Virus record (IMG/VR): IMGVR_UViG_3300021197_001203
Span: 44,316 to 108,315 of that record
Length of the DNA stretch: 64,000 nucleotides
DNA from: a virus
Direction: 5' to 3' (one strand)
Part shown: positions 1-35,941 of the stretch, piece after piece
Numbering within the stretch: position 1 is the stretch's first letter
Layout: every line of letters begins with the position of its first letter
Translations under genes and position numbers: made by a program
The notes under the pieces: model-generated
The model's database searches: none
What the model was told of the DNA's origin: nothing
What the model saw: only the letters and a program-made list of their open reading frames with translations

Positions 1-153
1 CATGGGATAATCCTCGTCATCATAATCATTACTGTCAATTTTGAACCATGATGGTGTTTTTTGATTCCACGGCAGGGGACCACCCTCATCATCGTGAGTC
101 CTCCCTTCGATTGTGTTTTTCACCAAATCCCATGCTTCATCAAATGCGGTCAT
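1..153 (-). CDS. Tagged late protein, 3' part cut by window edge
   Basis: Only the first 51 codons are visible, running off the left edge. The protein begins MTAFDEAWDLVKNT and continues with an acidic, proline-containing stretch. The start is an ATG one base downstream of the stop of the preceding minus-strand gene. The F-D-E-A-W-x-x-V-K motif at residues 4-12 recurs in four other minus-strand proteins of this window. No fold is recognisable; the role is unknown. By strand and motif it belongs with the late genes. Confidence 0.7.
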   Translation of the reverse strand, partial: MTAFDEAWDLVKNTIEGRTHDDEGGPLPWNQKTPSWFKIDSNDYDDEDYPM

Positions 154-154
154 C

Positions 155-442
155 TTACTCAATCCTTCCTCGATCCTTGTAGCACCCTTTACAAAAGGCA
201 TTACCTTGCTTTGATTCGTAGCTTATGTTTTCATCGTTAAACTCTTTACCGCACAGCTGGCATTCATTACCTGCATAGCCGCCCGGACCCATCTTGACAA
301 TGTTCCAAGCTCGGTCAAAAGATTTCTTTACGTCTTTCGCAGCATAACAAGGACACTTAGGCTCAGTCTTAGAGCATTTCATGATGCCCTGCTTCATACA
401 AGCACAAGGGTTAGACTTGGTGGCCCCGCAACAGCAGCCCAC
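155..442 (-). CDS. Cysteine-rich protein with internal FDxAWxxVK motif and zinc ribbon
   Basis: This 95-residue protein starts at a GTG directly after the TAA of the upstream gene. The first 35 residues are very rich in cysteine (CCC, CxC, CPC), then comes KKSFDRAWNIVKMG at residues 39-52, then a CxxC...CxxC pair (CQLC and CKGC) that should hold a zinc ion. The tag-like motif is internal here, so the Cys-rich head may be an added metal-binding module. It lies between two other motif carriers. Function is unknown; a small virion-associated protein is an inference from strand and motif. Confidence 0.75.
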   Translation of the reverse strand: MGCCCGATKSNPCACMKQGIMKCSKTEPKCPCYAAKDVKKSFDRAWNIVKMGPGGYAGNECQLCGKEFNDENISYESKQGNAFCKGCYKDRGRIE

Positions 443-847
443 TTACATCAAGCCTCGTAGCATATCCATGAGCTTAATTTTGTCAAGAGTCCCATAAATG
501 TCTTCACCTTCGTAATCACCCATGAAATCAGGGGCTAGTGGTTCGTATGGACCGCCTTCATAATGTCGGTCGAATAATTCAGACATATCAGGACGGTCTT
601 TCGTATATTGAGCGTAAGGACCCGCTTCGGTCCCATCATATCCTATATCTCGATAAACTTCAGGGTCTGACATCAACATTTCAATCATAGGAACCATACT
701 AGCTGGTACTTCCATAGTCACCATCCCTCCTTCTATGTCTTGGGCTATTGATTGTTGATCTGCAAAAACATCTTCATCTGTTCTGCTTAACTCTTTATTA
801 ACGACATTCCAGCTTTGCTCAAAAACAAAATCTTCGGCATCCGACAT
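443..847 (-). CDS. Tagged late protein, unknown function
   Basis: This 134-residue acidic protein is taken from the ATG at 847 (MSDAEDF), not from a longer reading that would begin in the A-rich intergenic repeats and encode an unlikely run of phenylalanines. Residues 7-16 (VFEQSWNVVN) match the F-x-x-x-W-x-V-V-K/N motif of its neighbours. The rest is rich in Asp, Glu, Met and Tyr with no recognised domain. It is the first visible minus-strand gene after the divergent region at 848-1703, whose left part should hold its promoter. Confidence 0.75.
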   Translation of the reverse strand: MSDAEDFVFEQSWNVVNKELSRTDEDVFADQQSIAQDIEGGMVTMEVPASMVPMIEMLMSDPEVYRDIGYDGTEAGPYAQYTKDRPDMSELFDRHYEGGPYEPLAPDFMGDYEGEDIYGTLDKIKLMDMLRGLM

Positions 848-884
848 ATCACACGCCACGGTACCATCGTTAATAGAATTGTCG

Positions 885-912
885 AAAAAAAATACCCCGA
901 AAAAAAATACCC
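885..912. repeat. A-rich tandem direct repeat
   Basis: Two tandem copies of a unit reading gaaaaaaaatacccc (second copy one C shorter) lie just upstream of the minus-strand gene that starts at 847. The poly-A runs read as poly-T on the minus strand. They may be bendable DNA in the promoter of that gene or slippage-derived; nothing in the sequence decides between these. Confidence 0.6.
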
Positions 913-1011
913 GAATATACTCCAAAAACACAGGTTTTTTCGATCAAAATGCCACCATGACAGCCCTGACAAAAAAATATCAGAAAAATCGCCGAGCTGC
1001 GTATGCGGTGA

Positions 1012-1703: not shown

Positions 1704-4700
1704 ATGAGTATGACAGAAATAATGAATGTAATGAGAATGATACTAGGCAGTCTATTGCCTAGCGTATTCGGCCAAAAGGCTGGATTAGAGATGACTGTAA
1801 TGAGTGAGGCTAGAATCGGTGAAGCTGCCGATCAATTATACCACACCGATTTAGTGCTAATACAACAAGAACTACGCACATTATCGCACGTTGTTATCAC
1901 CAATGAGTGGACTGGTGAACACCCAAAGAGAACCGATATGACACATGGTCTTGAAGCACAAATGAAAGTGGACAGATTAATCAAAGCGTCAGCAACACTA
2001 GAGACATACGCAAATGGCTGTGAATGTATCGAATGTAAGTTTGTAGTAGCAAAGGAGATGCCTAGCCTAAAGAATGTAGTATTAGGGACACCAGTGTCCT
2101 CATTCACATGGACAGGGACAGGTATGGTCGAAGAGGCCATTACACCTGACCCAGCACTAGAATTAGATGTGCCTATTACAGAAGATGAAATTAGGTATCA
2201 CATGAAGAAGTGGAACGGTGTAATACGGTCAACCTTCGTATGGCAACACAAAATGAATGCTGCTGAATTGATCGAAGATTTGCGTAAAGCGTCTTATCCT
2301 GCGGCTGGATATGAACCGACCTATGTTGGTGGTGGCAGTGATGCAGAACACGATTGGGTTGAGGCTAACTATAATTTCGATTCAGAATATGATAGAGAAA
2401 AGAATCGAATGAATGCTTCAATGGTAGTAGTGAATGAGGCTAGAACTGCAAATGGGTATAACCTCGATAGGGATAGGACAATACACGATGTTCAGCCAGT
2501 AGTTAAGTCAATGAAAGAAGTGGAGGGCTGGACACAAGAGATGCTCTATATTATTATCCGTGATAGCACAAACGCATCTGATCGAGTGGAGGCGGCTGAA
2601 ATGCTTGTTGAGCTAAAACAGAAGCAATTACACAGCTATCTGAAAGACAACCTAAAACCATCTGTCTTTAGAGCCGTGGATTTTGTTATTGGTTGTATGC
2701 CTAGCGACCTAGATTTGAACACGACAGTGGTGCAGGAATCCCGTGTTAATGATGAAGAACTTAGAGGCTTTCAAGACTATCGCATGGGTGCAACACATCA
2801 GGCTACTGATGGTCTATACTATGAGACACCATTAGATGAATGCCTGTGGCAGATTCTTGACCGAGAAGATGTGGAGGCTAATTGTGGCTTAGAAGAGGGT
2901 GAAATAACCGAAGCGGCTTGGAAACAATTTCTTGCGTTGCATAAGGATGCCTTCGCTAGTGCGGTTTGTGCGTTGGCTTCGGAATATTACAATGATTATC
3001 ATACACCAAAAGATGACTTGAGCGATACAGTAGTGCAGGAATCAAGAACTAGAATGTCATATATGTTCAAAGAAGGAGATGAATATCCAGTCTCAGTGGC
3101 AAATAAATCTCAAGCTCACAAAATGCTTGTTCATATGATTGCTCATGCTTCGGGGGACGGCACACCTATTGCTATCGTTGTGGCCAACACATATGCAGAT
3201 GAAGCCTTCGACATACCTATGGAAACTCCACATTCAGGAGATGAGTTATTGCATGGGACATATCAAGCAGTCAAAGAAGTTAGAGACGGACAGAGCGTTC
3301 ATGTTCAATTAAGTCGAGACGATGAAAGATTCGATCACACGACAGTAAAAACTAGCCATGTATGGGACAGGAGGACTTTGACTAATTCAGACATTAACAG
3401 ACTTAGAGAGCAATGGAATAGAGAGTTAGATGGTTTAGATTCAGACTCAAGATTCTTTCCTTATTCGATAACTGGTGCGAGGGCTGCTTCTAGCTTAATT
3501 GGCCAGCTTCTGACTAAAGCAGAAGATGATGATTATGGCGGTTCAGTAATGGTCAATGTTCTATGTGCCGAATACAAAGCAGAACAGGTGTTGCGTGTGT
3601 ATAATTTGAAAGATGAGTTTGGCGATCAGATTATGTCTCAAGCGGCTGGGTATAATCTCCCAATGACCGATGTAAGTCTGTTAGAGATGAGTCATTCAGT
3701 ACCACTCATTGGTTATCGTGAGGCTAAAAATACCTTTATTTCATTAGATGGAGGTCGCTGGAGTCTTTCATGGGCTATTACTGGTAGTTATGATGATATG
3801 ACTAATGAGTCGCCTAGAATAGAGATTAGCAACCATTACGTTATTGACAAATCAATTAGAGATTTGTGCGACCACATATTAACACGAAAAGACAGTGGTC
3901 GCTTACTAACCACAGGACAGGTAAAGTCTGATGTGTTAGTCAAAGCCACAAGTAAAGAAAACACATATCTTGTTTCAGACCACCAGTTAAAGATAGTCAA
4001 GAAGGATTTGGCTGACCTTCGATCAGCCGCACAGCTCTCGCTAGATGACACAGTAGTCCATGAGGTTAGATTGGACATACCTGATGAGCATTGGGACACA
4101 CTGATGGAGACATTACTACTAGATACTGAAACAATGGCAATAGAGCCGTCTGAGAGGGACAGAATACGTGAGGCTTTGGATAGTGTCGAGACAGTCAATC
4201 CTTTCTTTGATAGAGGTCAATTGCATTGTGGATTTGATGTTCTTAAGAATCCACTTTACAGAATATCTCTTGCTGATGCGATTAATGTATGTAAAGCAGG
4301 AGGATTAGTGTGGTTGGCTAATGAATCTCAAGATAACTATGGAGGGGAGGACAGCAGACACTATTCATACCCCGTTGAGAACCATGAAGACCTATATGAT
4401 TATGAAGATAGTGAAGAATTATTGATCGTATTAGAACCAATGTTTTACAATAAGCATGGTAATTTACTGGAGGGACATATACTACCTAATTCTAAAGATG
4501 GTGTATGGAAGGTGTCATTGACTCTAGCTAGAGATGCGAGACATAGATTAGCTGATGAAACACACTTCGATGAAGAGCATATTGAAGGCGAAATTAAGTC
4601 ATGGTTAGAGGACATAGACTACCGTGTCCTTGAGTGCGACATTATAGATGTATCAAACATCCCTAATGCTAACGATGGGGTCTATGACTTAGGTGATGCT

Positions 4701-5420
4701 GTAAAGAATCAATTAATGGCTGTCGAGACAGAAGAAGAGGTCAAAGAAATAGCGATTCTTTATCAGACCCGTCAAGCATGGTTGGATGGTTTCAGACACA
4801 AGAATGAGGAAGGTGAATATGAATTGCTTGAGCCTAGCACCAAAGAACAAATTGACGCTTTGTATGTCCCATTACCTAATTCAGTCGTTCTTGATGTGAT
4901 AGAGCAATTACAACCAGTATGGGGTTATCATTGGTCAAAGGTAGTAGGCAATCTTGATACTGTGTCTGATCAGATATTTCACATAATGAACCACGACAAT
5001 AGGAATCCATTGTCAGTCAGTTTCCATAAGCATGGTATAGACGGAGATAGAACCATGCAGAATTGGATGGGGGACAACGGACTGGGACATACATCAATGA
5101 GTATGAATGACGTGATAGCCTACCGACTTACAGACGGCTGGGTGTATCACAGTTGCAGAGCTTTAGGATGGGCGTGGTTGCCTGTTATTCATCAGGCTCA
5201 AGGGGCAGAGAATATGACTCGCTTTGAAAAGGTAAAAGCAATGATTAATCTTGATACAAACAGGATTCCGCTTCAAGAGGGAGAATTAGAATTGATTGAG
5301 GCTATGGTTAATGGTTTTAACCATCCCCGTATCAATGACTCATGGGGGGAACTCAATGAAGATGGAATGTTTTGGGCTACAAAAGCCATGGAAACTCTGA
5401 GTCATGAGGTGATCGAATGA
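1704..5420 (+). CDS. Large unknown protein with five spaced TVVxE(S/A)R motifs
   Basis: This 1238-residue acidic protein heads the long rightward gene block; I do not recognise its fold. The ATG at 1704 follows GGAAG by 8 bases. A short motif recurs at irregular spacing: VMSEAR (32-37), VVNEAR (242-247), TVVQESR (341-347), TVVQESR (442-448) and TVVHEVR (783-789). Flanking sequences are not otherwise alike, so these are not domain repeats; they look like linkers or cleavage sites in a polyprotein, giving pieces of about 210, 100, 101, 341 and 450 residues. Near the C-terminus KVKAMINLDTNR matches a motif in the metallopeptidase encoded at 14378-15427. The end overlaps the helicase gene by ATGA with the strong ribosome site GAGGTGATC. 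Confidence 0.8.
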   Translation: MSMTEIMNVMRMILGSLLPSVFGQKAGLEMTVMSEARIGEAADQLYHTDLVLIQQELRTLSHVVITNEWTGEHPKRTDMTHGLEAQMKVDRLIKASATLETYANGCECIECKFVVAKEMPSLKNVVLGTPVSSFTWTGTGMVEEAITPDPALELDVPITEDEIRYHMKKWNGVIRSTFVWQHKMNAAELIEDLRKASYPAAGYEPTYVGGGSDAEHDWVEANYNFDSEYDREKNRMNASMVVVNEARTANGYNLDRDRTIHDVQPVVKSMKEVEGWTQEMLYIIIRDSTNASDRVEAAEMLVELKQKQLHSYLKDNLKPSVFRAVDFVIGCMPSDLDLNTTVVQESRVNDEELRGFQDYRMGATHQATDGLYYETPLDECLWQILDREDVEANCGLEEGEITEAAWKQFLALHKDAFASAVCALASEYYNDYHTPKDDLSDTVVQESRTRMSYMFKEGDEYPVSVANKSQAHKMLVHMIAHASGDGTPIAIVVANTYADEAFDIPMETPHSGDELLHGTYQAVKEVRDGQSVHVQLSRDDERFDHTTVKTSHVWDRRTLTNSDINRLREQWNRELDGLDSDSRFFPYSITGARAASSLIGQLLTKAEDDDYGGSVMVNVLCAEYKAEQVLRVYNLKDEFGDQIMSQAAGYNLPMTDVSLLEMSHSVPLIGYREAKNTFISLDGGRWSLSWAITGSYDDMTNESPRIEISNHYVIDKSIRDLCDHILTRKDSGRLLTTGQVKSDVLVKATSKENTYLVSDHQLKIVKKDLADLRSAAQLSLDDTVVHEVRLDIPDEHWDTLMETLLLDTETMAIEPSERDRIREALDSVETVNPFFDRGQLHCGFDVLKNPLYRISLADAINVCKAGGLVWLANESQDNYGGEDSRHYSYPVENHEDLYDYEDSEELLIVLEPMFYNKHGNLLEGHILPNSKDGVWKVSLTLARDARHRLADETHFDEEHIEGEIKSWLEDIDYRVLECDIIDVSNIPNANDGVYDLGDAVKNQLMAVETEEEVKEIAILYQTRQAWLDGFRHKNEEGEYELLEPSTKEQIDALYVPLPNSVVLDVIEQLQPVWGYHWSKVVGNLDTVSDQIFHIMNHDNRNPLSVSFHKHGIDGDRTMQNWMGDNGLGHTSMSMNDVIAYRLTDGWVYHSCRALGWAWLPVIHQAQGAENMTRFEKVKAMINLDTNRIPLQEGELELIEAMVNGFNHPRINDSWGELNEDGMFWATKAMETLSHEVIE

Positions 5421-31482: not shown

Positions 31483-32193
31483 ATGTTAGGAAACAGATTA
31501 GCAACATTTATGCAAACAGAAAAGATAATCTCATTTAGAGTTTTTAGCTCATATGATGATGACAAGGATTACACCGACCTTGATAAGTTTCATATTGATG
31601 CTGCTGTTTTCTTCGATGGCAGAACATTCTATGTATTCACTGATGTTGTGAATGAATTAATACATAAGGGGTATAAAACTCAAGTCAGATCAAGAAAAGA
31701 AATGGGTGCTTGGATAAAAGCTTTGGATCATGAAACTACATTAGTAGGTTTTAATTCTAACAAGCTACAATACCAGCTACTACTCAAAGCATACGATATA
31801 CAATTCAAAACAATTGACTTGATGGATTCAATAGGACTCGCTGCTGCCTCTTACTATGACACTTCTAAACCACGCTTTACACTTAGAGAATGTTCTCGGT
31901 GGAATAGTGTCAAACAAAGTATATTGCCTCACTACACTTGGATGTTCACTACAATTGAATTGTTCGATGAATGGTATAGTGAAAGATTTCGTAGTGTTGC
32001 TAAGAATCTAGCAGCTGAATGCGAAATGATAGCAAAGCTAGCACACCGTATCAGGAAGAGAAAACAAGTACGCTGGCTAGATAGGGTGTCAGGAAAAGGT
32101 GTTGCGATACCTATGGACTTCTATGGTCAAATCATACCTAGAGGTTTTTTCAAAGGGGCTAAAGATGACCCATCTCTTGAAGGTAGCGAATAG
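31483..32193 (+). CDS. RNase H-fold 3'-5' exonuclease-like protein, possibly degenerate
   Basis: The 236-residue sequence has LVGFNSNKLQYQLLLKAYDI near 88-107 and IDLMDSIGLAA near 112, the second-motif pattern of YprB/DEDD-type exonucleases, then a helical C-terminal part. The first motif (D-x-E on strand 1) is not clear: the strand reads AAVFFDGRTFYVF. It may be a proofreading-like or structural relative. Its 3' end overlaps the end of the convergent minus-strand gene by 35 bases. Confidence 0.5.
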   Translation: MLGNRLATFMQTEKIISFRVFSSYDDDKDYTDLDKFHIDAAVFFDGRTFYVFTDVVNELIHKGYKTQVRSRKEMGAWIKALDHETTLVGFNSNKLQYQLLLKAYDIQFKTIDLMDSIGLAAASYYDTSKPRFTLRECSRWNSVKQSILPHYTWMFTTIELFDEWYSERFRSVAKNLAAECEMIAKLAHRIRKRKQVRWLDRVSGKGVAIPMDFYGQIIPRGFFKGAKDDPSLEGSE

Positions 32194-33943
32194 TATCAGG
32201 ATGCACGATGTTGCTTAATTGATCGATAGTAGTCACGCCACCTTTGTCTAAGAATCGTTGCACGTTATGGTTAGGGTTTTCTAAATGGAACGCTGTTTCC
32301 GGTTGCACAGGAGGTAATGCCCCCAGTGCTTCTTCAGTAGCCCTACCAAAGTCTGTACCCATTTGGAACGGTATAATTGATTTAGCGTGATATGCGGGTA
32401 CTGATACTTTTTTCCCAGTGATTGGATTAATGTAGCTGAAACCTCTTGTTTGTTGTGTACCACGGTTTGACCCTTTAGGTGCAAAGGCATATCCAGCACC
32501 CGAAAGTATGCTGCCCATCGTCCTTACTTTTCCTTCACGATTCCCAAATTGAAAGCTATCCAATAATGCGTCTCTAGGTTGTCTAGTTAATGAATTACTT
32601 TTCATGCCTTTTTTTGAAAACTTTCTCATACCCTCTAATAATATTTCATCTAAGAAAGCTCTAGGCACAGGAACAGATGAACTTCTAAGTTGAGGGACGC
32701 TAGAGAAATCACTGTATTTTGCTTTAGTATTAAACAACACGTCTTTTCTAGGGTCTTTAGATATTTGTCCTATTCTTGGTCTAGGCACCCACCCTTTAGG
32801 AAACCTACCAAAAAAATCTGTTCTCTTTAACGGTGGAAGATTCGCAGCACCATACCTCAATTGTTCACCTGTATTCCCTGCATATTTTATTGATGTCTCT
32901 AAGGGGTCTAAACCAGTCCCAGTAATAGGTGATCGATTTTGGGCTATACCGAAGAGAGAGGCTACTGGGTCAGAATAAGATGCGTGATTGACCGAAGCAA
33001 AATCAGGTAATATTTTACTGTATGTCATCGGCATAAATCTAGCCATCCCCGTAGGGTTTTCAAGAATACTAAACATATCGGGATTACGGCGTGTCATCTC
33101 TTCAACTAATTTGAAAGTATCACGGAATAATTTTGCAGTTCCTTTATTAGACCCTCCAAAGTTTTTCTTTTTACCAGTAATAGGGTCGGTCCTCCAATCA
33201 GGCATTTTTGGTTTCCAATTACCAGCTGGATTTTCATCAGTCGATTCTCCCATCCACGCTGGGGCTTCATTTGTAGTGCCTCTAGCCTCTAGTGCTTCTC
33301 TTTTCCCTTCTTTATTATATCCCTCCGGTTCGTGCCATTTACTACCTACGGCAGCAACACTCATATCAACACAGGTAGGACTACCGAATAACACATCAGG
33401 CATACGACCACCAAAATGATCTTCGATTTCATTTACAGATAAGTCCTGTATATCAGATAAGAACGTAGGGGTTATACCCATTTGCTTACTGTCAGGGCCA
33501 CCCGTTTTACCCCAATCAGACGTTGCCCCTGTATGTCCTCTTCGATACATATCAGAACCCCAGCCACCCGGCAAAACCTTTTCTCCACCTACTCCTGAAA
33601 ACAATTCCATTGACATAAGTTCCTTTTGTTTAGGGGACATATTAGGACGCTCAGGTGCTAACACTGCTACACTCAATTCTTCTTCAGATGCTTTCGCAAT
33701 ATGTTTGCGGCTACCTCCCGCGCCCAGCTGCCTACGCATTGTAGGTCTAACATTACCCCTTGATTTGTTTCTTGAGTATCTTCTTTGAGTCTTTGCTCGT
33801 TTATTCTTACGGCTCTTATTCCAAGCTCTAGCTTTAGCTTGTCTCTCAGCTCGGCCACTTATTGTATTGCGTGAATAACCAGTGAACTTACCCTTGTCCT
33901 CATTCTTGGTCATCTCCCAAGCCTCATCAAAAGGATCAGTCAC
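32159..33943 (-). CDS. C5-cytosine DNA methyltransferase-like protein with N-terminal late-protein tag
   Basis: This 594-residue protein begins MTDPFDEAWEMTKNEDK, the tag motif shared with other late proteins, followed by a very basic region (residues 25-85). ELFSGVGG near 112-119 matches C5-methyltransferase motif I, GSPTCVDMS near 187-195 motif IV with the catalytic Cys (usual form PCQ, here TCV), and ILENPTGMARF near 292-302 the ENV/ENP motif. The large remaining part would hold target recognition. It should methylate cytosine in DNA, but the altered motif IV leaves activity open. It lies last in the late block and may be carried in the virion; that is inferred from the tag. Confidence 0.65.
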   Translation of the reverse strand: MTDPFDEAWEMTKNEDKGKFTGYSRNTISGRAERQAKARAWNKSRKNKRAKTQRRYSRNKSRGNVRPTMRRQLGAGGSRKHIAKASEEELSVAVLAPERPNMSPKQKELMSMELFSGVGGEKVLPGGWGSDMYRRGHTGATSDWGKTGGPDSKQMGITPTFLSDIQDLSVNEIEDHFGGRMPDVLFGSPTCVDMSVAAVGSKWHEPEGYNKEGKREALEARGTTNEAPAWMGESTDENPAGNWKPKMPDWRTDPITGKKKNFGGSNKGTAKLFRDTFKLVEEMTRRNPDMFSILENPTGMARFMPMTYSKILPDFASVNHASYSDPVASLFGIAQNRSPITGTGLDPLETSIKYAGNTGEQLRYGAANLPPLKRTDFFGRFPKGWVPRPRIGQISKDPRKDVLFNTKAKYSDFSSVPQLRSSSVPVPRAFLDEILLEGMRKFSKKGMKSNSLTRQPRDALLDSFQFGNREGKVRTMGSILSGAGYAFAPKGSNRGTQQTRGFSYINPITGKKVSVPAYHAKSIIPFQMGTDFGRATEEALGALPPVQPETAFHLENPNHNVQRFLDKGGVTTIDQLSNIVHPDTIRYLQEMGHL

Positions 33944-34581
33944 TGGACATCACCTACATTTAACATCAATTCAGGGTCAATGTCTAGCAGCTGTTCTTGA
34001 TCGTACTGCCCTCTTAAGGGCATACCTTGTAAAATAAGCTGTCTTTGCATATCAGGGAAGTAATTTGATGATAGTTCAATAGGGACAGGGACGTTTCCTA
34101 AGAGTTGAAGTATAGCCATCATCCTGTGTCTGCCTTCATGCCCCACAATATCTCTTGATTGAGACACTTTGCCCAAAGTAGTATCGTTATTTGATGCAAT
34201 TCTTAGATTGGGGATATAAGTAGGCTTGCCCTCTTTCATTCCCTGTATAATATTTTCTGTACGAGGGTTTTTTTGTTTCTTCTTCTTATCCCACCACATA
34301 TAGTCCTGTAATACGCTGCCGTACATTTGTTCACCTTTATGATTCCCTTTTATTGGAGAGGTGAGCCTGAGATAGTCCTGTGGCTTCATCATGGTCTTAG
34401 TATGGTAGCTTCCAAAAACCGGACTCCCCCCCATCGGATAATAATTCGTTTCTCCATCTATGCCGGGTTCTCGCCAGCTTCTGCCCTTGTCGTTTTCTTC
34501 TTTATCCCAAAACTCCGTAGGGCCGACTTTGTATGTAGCCATTTTGACTAATGCCCAACCATGTTGAAAGGCATCGCTCAT
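33940..34581 (-). CDS. Tagged late protein with ParB-like GHEGRHR motif
   Basis: The ATG at 34581 forms an ATGA overlap with the upstream gene, giving 213 residues starting MSDAFQHGWALVKMA, the tag motif. The second half has VGHEGRHRMMAILQLLGNVPVPIEL near 144-168, the signature strand-loop-helix of ParB/sulfiredoxin-like domains that bind nucleotides and sometimes act as nucleases. It sits between a zinc-ribbon protein and the methyltransferase. A nucleic-acid role in the virion or early infection is possible. Confidence 0.65.
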   Translation of the reverse strand: MSDAFQHGWALVKMATYKVGPTEFWDKEENDKGRSWREPGIDGETNYYPMGGSPVFGSYHTKTMMKPQDYLRLTSPIKGNHKGEQMYGSVLQDYMWWDKKKKQKNPRTENIIQGMKEGKPTYIPNLRIASNNDTTLGKVSQSRDIVGHEGRHRMMAILQLLGNVPVPIELSSNYFPDMQRQLILQGMPLRGQYDQEQLLDIDPELMLNVGDVQ

Positions 34582-34775
34582 GTATGCGCCTTTGTTTTCA
34601 ATCCTTTTTTGAGTTTGGGGTTTATTTTTTTCCACACCGCATCACAAATAGGACATTCCCATAAGAAAATCCGGTCTCTCGATCCTGCATAAAATCCGTT
34701 TATACGGATAGCCAATACTCGATTAGAACACTCAGGGCAGTCTTGACTTATCTTATCCTGATAGTGATTGACCAT
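34578..34775 (-). CDS. Small zinc-ribbon protein
   Basis: A 65-residue protein with CPECSNR near 14 and CPICDAVW near 44, a zinc ribbon, and a basic tail (KKINPKLKKGLKTK). Overlaps at both ends (TGATG, ATGA) show tight coupling in the late operon. Confidence 0.7.
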   Translation of the reverse strand: MVNHYQDKISQDCPECSNRVLAIRINGFYAGSRDRIFLWECPICDAVWKKINPKLKKGLKTKAHT

Positions 34776-35941
34776 CAGGTATGCCCCGCATGAGTGTAGG
34801 TGACTAATATTTTATCAGCCCCGCCAGTCTCAAAACCACCACCATTGTCGTCAGGTATGGTTATCGCAGTGCCCGCAGTATTGACATAGAAATCACCAAC
34901 GGGTGCGCCACCACCTTGAGCTGATTGGATTAAAATACCATCACGCAATTTTTCTCCTGCCCCTGTGTCCGAAGCATCATAAGAATGAATCTCAATAAGA
35001 TACAAAGTGGAGTCATCTTGTGATTGCAGCGGCTTAAAAAGAATGTCCGTTCCGAATGTAATAGTTTTTGCAGCAGCCGGATTCCAATCAAATATCTTTT
35101 TTGAAGTACGGTGTGTAGGAGTTAGTTGGTACACTCCACCCCCTCCTGCATATTCTCCTACACCTTTATCTGATTGGAAGAAAAGGTGTGTCTGATCAAT
35201 GCCGTTTGGCGTTCCTGATAACCCTCTAGGGTTTCTAGCAAATAAGAAACCTAAATCTGAAACAGGCAGGGTGCCGTTTTGACTACCTGCTATGAAATCG
35301 TTGGCTGGGTTGGAACCGTTGCTTGCATGATTACTTAAAGCCGAGATTGGATAAGGGCCGGGGCGAATGAATACTCTTTTGTCATTACACTTCGCAATAG
35401 CAACGCCGCTGTTGTAAGTTAATCTGCATGAAGCTAATACGATAGTGTGTTTAGCTAGATGACCTGATGGGCTTTGTGGATAAACACCAGTTGCAGTATT
35501 CACTTCGTCTCCGTAAATATAACCTATGAAACCTGCTTTGGTAGGGTCAACATAAACTAACAACATTCTTTCGTAGCCACTACCAGTCAAGGTAGGAACC
35601 GAATTGCCGTTATACGGGAAAAAAGATGCAGTGCCTCCAGCTGTAATATCTTTAGCAATACTAGATACTTCGTAAAACATACCATCTAGTAAAACAGTAC
35701 CAGCTGCAACTGTAATAGTGGTGCCGCTAAATGAGGTGGCACAATTGCCATTAACATAGGACAACCTATTAGAATTAGAGCTGTGATAATCATTTACGGT
35801 GATTGGTACTACCCCGTTCATCAAAGCCCTTTCATTAAAATTAGTTAGTGTGGGGCTTGTCAATACATCTCCATCGAGCAAACCATCTTCTTGGTCAGAC
35901 CCCGTTTTCTTCTCATGTCCTTCACCTAAACTCGCCATCAT
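34775..35941 (-). CDS. Virion tail/baseplate-associated protein, unknown family
   Basis: A 388-residue Gly/Ser/Thr-rich, beta-looking protein typical of tail accessory proteins. The first 100 residues resemble phage fibre N-terminal domains (SNRLSYVNGNCATSFSGTT...VAAGTVLLDGMFYEVSS), followed by a strand-rich middle and end. It is coupled to the 113-residue protein upstream and the zinc ribbon downstream. Confidence 0.6.
   Translation of the reverse strand: MMASLGEGHEKKTGSDQEDGLLDGDVLTSPTLTNFNERALMNGVVPITVNDYHSSNSNRLSYVNGNCATSFSGTTITVAAGTVLLDGMFYEVSSIAKDITAGGTASFFPYNGNSVPTLTGSGYERMLLVYVDPTKAGFIGYIYGDEVNTATGVYPQSPSGHLAKHTIVLASCRLTYNSGVAIAKCNDKRVFIRPGPYPISALSNHASNGSNPANDFIAGSQNGTLPVSDLGFLFARNPRGLSGTPNGIDQTHLFFQSDKGVGEYAGGGGVYQLTPTHRTSKKIFDWNPAAAKTITFGTDILFKPLQSQDDSTLYLIEIHSYDASDTGAGEKLRDGILIQSAQGGGAPVGDFYVNTAGTAITIPDDNGGGFETGGADKILVTYTHAGHT

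Follow-up and report, generated by a model that had tools for sequence, protein, structure and literature searches.

Two neighbouring genes on the minus strand, at 32159-34581 of the window (the whole stretch of 64,000 nucleotides that was analysed, covering 44316-108315 of a virus record 108,315 bases long), encode a ParB-like and a C5-methyltransferase-like protein that start with the same short peptide, here called the tag. Their coding regions share 4 bases, and the pair closes the run of tail genes. The features are as follows:

33940-34581, minus strand (or to 34635 with an upstream GTG): gene for the tagged ParB/Srx-like protein, 213 aa with a GHEGRHRM segment, reading MSDAFQHGWALVKMA from the ATG at 34581
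34537-34581, minus strand: tag copy MSDAFQHGWALVK-MA, N-terminus of the ParB-like protein
32159-33943, minus strand: gene for the C5-methyltransferase-like protein, 594 aa, reading MTDPFDEAWEMTKNE from the GTG at 33943
33899-33943, minus strand: tag copy MTDPFDEAWEMTK-NE, N-terminus of the C5-methyltransferase-like protein

The first-pass annotation had placed one N-terminal peptide on both proteins; both copies are present on the minus strand and chance similarity is excluded, and the claim was in fact understated, as these are only two of about 18 copies in the 108-kb virus. The names given to the two proteins fare unequally. The methyltransferase label rests on a match to PHROG 116 (DNA methyltransferase, E 8e-5) and one to the C5 methylase family PF00145 that stays under the Pfam cut-off; no close homologue was found when sought by peptide patterns. 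The ParB-like label is weak, its sole basis being the conserved GHEGRHRM segment; domain and profile libraries gave no match to this protein, and a structure model (pLDDT 40) was too poor for use. In a homologue (L020:10282-11259) the ParB-like domain is preceded by an internal LMK↓M junction rather than the tag (the arrow marks the junction), so that LVK↓MATYKVGPTEFW of the tagged form stands against LMK↓MARHRIGPTEIW. The 594-aa protein consists of the tag, a basic domain (GKFTGYSRNTISGRAERQAKARAW...) and the C5-methyltransferase-like domain. The basic domain, GKFxGYSxNxxxGRAERQAKRxxW, lies at 33720-33900 of the window on the minus strand and is found in other viruses (L192 and L196 relatives) as an independent tagged protein of about 90 aa; it is possibly an internal DNA-binding head protein.

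In the whole record the tag has the consensus M-T-A-F-[DE]-x-A-W-x-[LIV]-[VLA]-K, which across related loci continues with [AM]. A degenerate DNA pattern for F..AW..h[VTA]K matched 15 times in the 108,315 bases, always on the minus (late) strand, and the reversed pattern did not match at all; the count of about 18 includes diverged copies. A run of adjacent tagged genes lies directly ahead of the packaging and head genes of the record, and further tagged genes adjoin the terminase gene. Three copies lie at the left edge of the window:

1-153, minus strand: tagged protein truncated by the window edge, MTAFDEAWDLVKNTIEG...
155-442, minus strand: tagged zinc-binding-like protein, with the tag FDRAWNIVKM after a short Cys-rich leader
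443-931, minus strand: probable diverged tag with an insertion, MSDAEDFVFEQSWNVVNK, on a body homologous to a tagged family

Elsewhere the window encodes a group II chaperonin (thermosome, PF00118, 12069-13703), a PAPS reductase-family protein (PF01507, 25213-26190) among the replication-strand genes, and on the plus strand a 1238-aa protein of unknown family (1704-5420), which around residue 850 has a segment in common (E 2e-12) with a tagged body from another locus (L014).

The major capsid protein (MCP) is 32-33% identical to those of the haloarchaeal viruses HCTV-1, HVTV-1 and HCTV-5, a relation already known for magroviruses (PMC8651126). Magrovirales are recognised by an MCP related to that of Druskaviridae, a genome of about 108 kb, head and replication modules in opposite orientation and a Poseidoniales host (PMC12999244). 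A family B DNA polymerase is a further mark of the order. The virus studied here meets the criteria for MCP, size (108,315 bases), opposite modules and host link; a single-cell genome of Poseidoniales includes a 106-kb contig with an MCP 87% identical to that of this virus, and there too tagged genes lie beside the portal gene. The tag-bearing viruses are accordingly Magrovirales-like, and the single-cell genome links them to Poseidoniales. Hosts of magroviruses are among the most abundant archaea of the surface ocean, and most proteins of these viruses have no assigned function.

A strict form of the tag (ATG-Thr-Ala-Phe-Asp-x-Ala-Trp-x-h-Val-Lys) was found in 57 stretches of viral contigs and a looser form in 101, with no match to the reversed strict pattern in the same contigs and none to the strict pattern in 84,980 bacterial and archaeal genomes (257 billion bases). 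In the loci that were fetched, there are 341 cases of the protein motif lying no more than 7 codons from a start codon, and a single case of the reversed motif. To avoid a choice based on the tag, 46 related records were selected by MCP alone. The tag is present in 36 of these, with 223 matches, 220 on the MCP strand and 3 on the opposite one, and no match to the reversed pattern. Tagged genes thus run in the direction of the head genes, which speaks of strand only and not of the timing of expression. The strict tag is missing from ten of the 46 records; two long ones among these have relaxed copies, two in one record and a single one in the other. HVTV-1 has no tag. A text search of 5.4 million papers for the tag letters and a literature search for an N-terminal motif in Poseidoniales viruses gave nothing relevant, and the motif is not described anywhere in the literature searched.

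The proteins that carry the tag are diverse. The 339 complete ones fall into about 143 body clusters, of which 86 have a single member; this count is approximate because single-linkage clustering mixes some families (e.g., ADP-ribosyltransferase (ART)-like proteins with HExxH proteins). One cluster (36) looks like an antisense artefact. Domains among the cluster representatives include D12 and other DNA methyltransferases, a ParB C-terminal domain, an HNH/EndoVII-like nuclease, GP88, DUF6321, DUF5872, HTH and numerous zinc ribbons. A match to ASCH is weak, and GNAT-like and HExxH motifs were recognised by eye only. Three tagged proteins with an HExxGH-like motif (L020:5123-5650, L041:8349-8876 and L025:1042-1536) are candidates for zincin-like peptidases. 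A D12-type N6-adenine methyltransferase at L004:94-1587 has no recognisable tag, and its relatives (L037:3993-5660) are tagged. The largest cluster includes an ART-like family (Y-H-G-T), whose profile finds RNA 2'-phosphotransferases and DarT among PDB entries; in a structure comparison its folded model (pLDDT 75) is closest to ART-fold proteins, albeit at modest TM-scores. In this model the tag forms a separate short helix of residues 3-11. Most tagged ORFs are short and apparently single-domain, with few fusions (L003:12752-15088, L020:10282-11259). The former (record bases 32752-35088) encodes a 778-aa protein that begins tag-like (DSLFEKSWK) and has an internal tag, FEDAWGLVKA, ahead of a GP88 domain; in relatives the GP88 part is a separate, N-terminally tagged protein. 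Tagged genes are clustered and mosaic, with turnover between genomes.

The last residue of the tag is Lys in 310 of 315 proteins and Arg in the other 5 (the search motif allowed only K or R), and the tag ends in hydrophobic-hydrophobic-Lys (hhK). The same signature surrounds the prohead protease of these viruses, a Peptidase S78 (PF04586, E 4e-10) encoded between the portal (PF04860, E 6e-11) and MCP genes in the gene order of L002. In all 30 non-redundant proteases, [FWY]hhK stands immediately ahead of the S78 domain, Y[TS]hhKM immediately past it and N[KQ]xhhK within a variable linker, which in 28 of the 30 has two Lys motifs; the background frequency of [VIL][VIL]K is 0.34 per 100 aa. Similarly, bodies without the tag are often fused to other upstream proteins precisely at hhK, as in the pairs LMK↓SDEKGDNAP (tagged) versus VVK↓SDEKGDNAP and IVK↓MPRTLE versus LVK↓MPRTLE. 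Lys occupies P1 in 35 of 71 such untagged-body junctions against a background of 5.7%, with the caveat that BLAST extension slightly favours a matching Lys. A tag with an insertion before the Lys still keeps hydrophobic-Lys. The L/I-X-E motif of T4 gp21 is not met, as it is Lys that tag and protease sites conserve. From this conservation it is inferred that the end of the tag is a cleavage site of the S78 protease, although no cutting has been shown and the hydrophobic residues ahead of the Lys could be explained by a helix pattern alone. A conserved MCP segment, TDLLK↓ADSP, is a possible cut site in the MCP itself; HVTV-1 has K102-A-D at this position and another K-A-D upstream.

A rival reading is that the tag is not cut at all. 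It might be a docking helix for the procapsid core that is never removed, the tagged proteins being structural or core components and not injected effectors. The spacing of F, A, W and [LIV] would fit such a helix, as would the modelled helix of residues 3-11 and the presence of portal-tail-like and small basic proteins among the tagged set. Against this, the Lys signature survives where the remainder of the tag is lost (VVK↓, FLVK↓, LMK↓) and recurs around the protease, and many of the bodies are enzyme-like (ART fold, methyltransferases) and vary between genomes. An uncut helix is therefore considered unlikely, and a removable address is preferred.

Where such an address would lead is indicated by the portal protein. 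Most related viruses have a portal with some 110 residues of C-terminal tail, in many of them preceded by [LIFM][FLM]K↓R; the portals of the rest stop before this tail. Each of the 13 distinct short portals has a tagged gene next in line, as a rule overlapping by 4 bases, but only 2 of 40 long portals do. A search with a profile of the tail found, besides the portals, 16 separate tails (one extra match, a portal fragment, was left out), of which 15 are tagged and one has the near-tag F..AWSVVEK. When separate and fused tails are aligned (47% identity, E 4e-24), the Lys of the tag falls on the Lys of the portal (Lys↓Arg). An untethered tail therefore has the tag in place of the portal. The portal tail, the last 110 aa or so of L002:16922-18715, thus behaves like a piece of cargo that can be exchanged and brings a Lys junction of its own. 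The portal may have been split in few evolutionary events, so that 13 of 13 overstates independence, and kinship among the viruses inflates these counts. Portal tails of this kind are expected at the head-interior side, and the simplest reading is therefore that the tag brings proteins inside the procapsid. The same observations bear on the suggestion that the tag directs proteins not to the virion but to a viral factory or a nucleus-like compartment within the cell. An N-terminal label on many proteins would suit this; replication genes on the opposite strand, however, lack the tag (only 3 of the 223 matches are off the MCP strand), and its presence on separate portal tails points to the head interior, which makes a factory address very improbable.

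Conservation of the tag drops after position +10, about 2 residues past the Lys, and at conserved residues the synonymous codons vary freely (TTT/TTC, GCT/GCA/GCG, AAA/AAG), which argues for selection on the peptide. The idea that a DNA-level element (a translation enhancer or recombination cassette) has been spread by gene shuffling, with a peptide of no role, draws on the clustering, mosaicism and turnover of tagged genes, but can hardly be upheld given this codon variation, the internal tag copies and the tolerated insertion before the Lys.

The tag is thus, as judged from sequence, a clade-wide, protein-level and strictly placed element on unrelated late-strand proteins, with a Lys signature common to tag and protease, and interchangeable with covalent linkage to the portal. 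It is probably a capsid-targeting signal of Magrovirales-like archaeal viruses that also contains a site for the maturation protease. The F..AW half would form an amphipathic helix docking late-made proteins to the inner core or scaffold of the procapsid, an inferred step whose receptor is unidentified. During head maturation the [LIV][VLA]K end would be cut by the S78 protease of the virus. As DNA fills the head, the freed cargo may stay with it, and it may then be ejected with the DNA into the next cell. The predicted cargo comprises ART-fold proteins, DNA methyltransferases, ParB-like, ASCH-like and zinc-binding proteins, and small basic proteins that probably bind DNA. Presence in the virion, packaging, cutting and ejection all remain unproven inferences; for these viruses, neither virion proteomics nor N-terminal sequencing or expression data could be found.

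The first-pass annotation had proposed that the tagged proteins are packed in the virion and delivered with the genome. A packing tag is supported by its genome-wide, protein-level and nearly late-strand-only occurrence on about 143 body clusters. Further backing comes from its presence on separate portal tails and absence from fused ones, and from the hhK shared with the protease and the junctions. Late homologues without the tag, which were to count against the idea, do exist, and the D12 methyltransferase of the studied virus is one of them. This objection carries limited weight: most homologues of tagged bodies retain the tag and many of the others are instead fused, at that Lys, to a different protein, while some are plainly without it.

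It is tempting to go further and regard the tag as the basis of a modular delivery system, in which one universal, protease-removable address peptide serves a rotating set of about 10-20 effectors (ADP-ribosyltransferases, methyltransferases, ParB-like and basic DNA-binding proteins) injected against Poseidoniales, with the portal tail as interchangeable cargo. This is considered fairly probable. If the tag is a packaging signal, virion cargo can be picked out of any genome or fragment of this kind from the sequence alone, the cargo is likely to consist of effectors of host takeover or counter-defence, and the tag also predicts the protease cut site. It would then be the first common capsid-targeting peptide described for an archaeal virus, within the literature searched.

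Several known systems resemble the one proposed here. Polyvalent proteins of phages and conjugative elements are predicted to be co-injected with DNA (PMC5512222). Their domains overlap with those of the tagged proteins (ART, ParB/Srx, DNA methyltransferase and, by eye, HExxH), but they combine many domains in one polypeptide, whereas the tagged genes mostly encode one domain and a common label. In phage P1, an N-terminal signal sends the anti-restriction protein DarB into the head, its first 30 residues being enough for a reporter, and the Dar proteins have no recognisable common N-terminal motif (PMC9024508); in the magrovirus-like viruses, on the other hand, one motif heads all the predicted cargo. 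Ejection proteins of phiKZ and SPN3US have N-terminal propeptides that the prohead protease removes by cutting after Glu; most are longer than 100 residues and were contrasted by the authors with the short capsid-targeting sequence (CTS) of T4 (PMC5694885). Removal of an N-terminal propeptide and processing of inner head and portal proteins would be alike, and the tag differs in its shortness and its Lys end. The closest parallel is the CTS of T4, carried by internal proteins IPI-III and cut by the gp21 prohead protease, with targeting residues ahead of processing residues; T4 also packages and ejects Alt, an ADP-ribosyltransferase (PMC9026906). In both cases a short N-terminal peptide sits on proteins with unrelated bodies, and the virus encodes its own prohead protease; for the tag, a targeting half followed by a processing half is inferred. 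The tag differs in sequence, in a putative cut after Lys by an S78 protease instead of at L/I-X-E by gp21, in the number of putative cargo genes per genome (about 10-20 versus about 4 in T4), in belonging to an archaeal virus and in including the portal tail within the proposed cargo set. By this analogy, the best reading is that the tag would work like the T4 CTS, with a different sequence and protease specificity and a much larger set of cargo.
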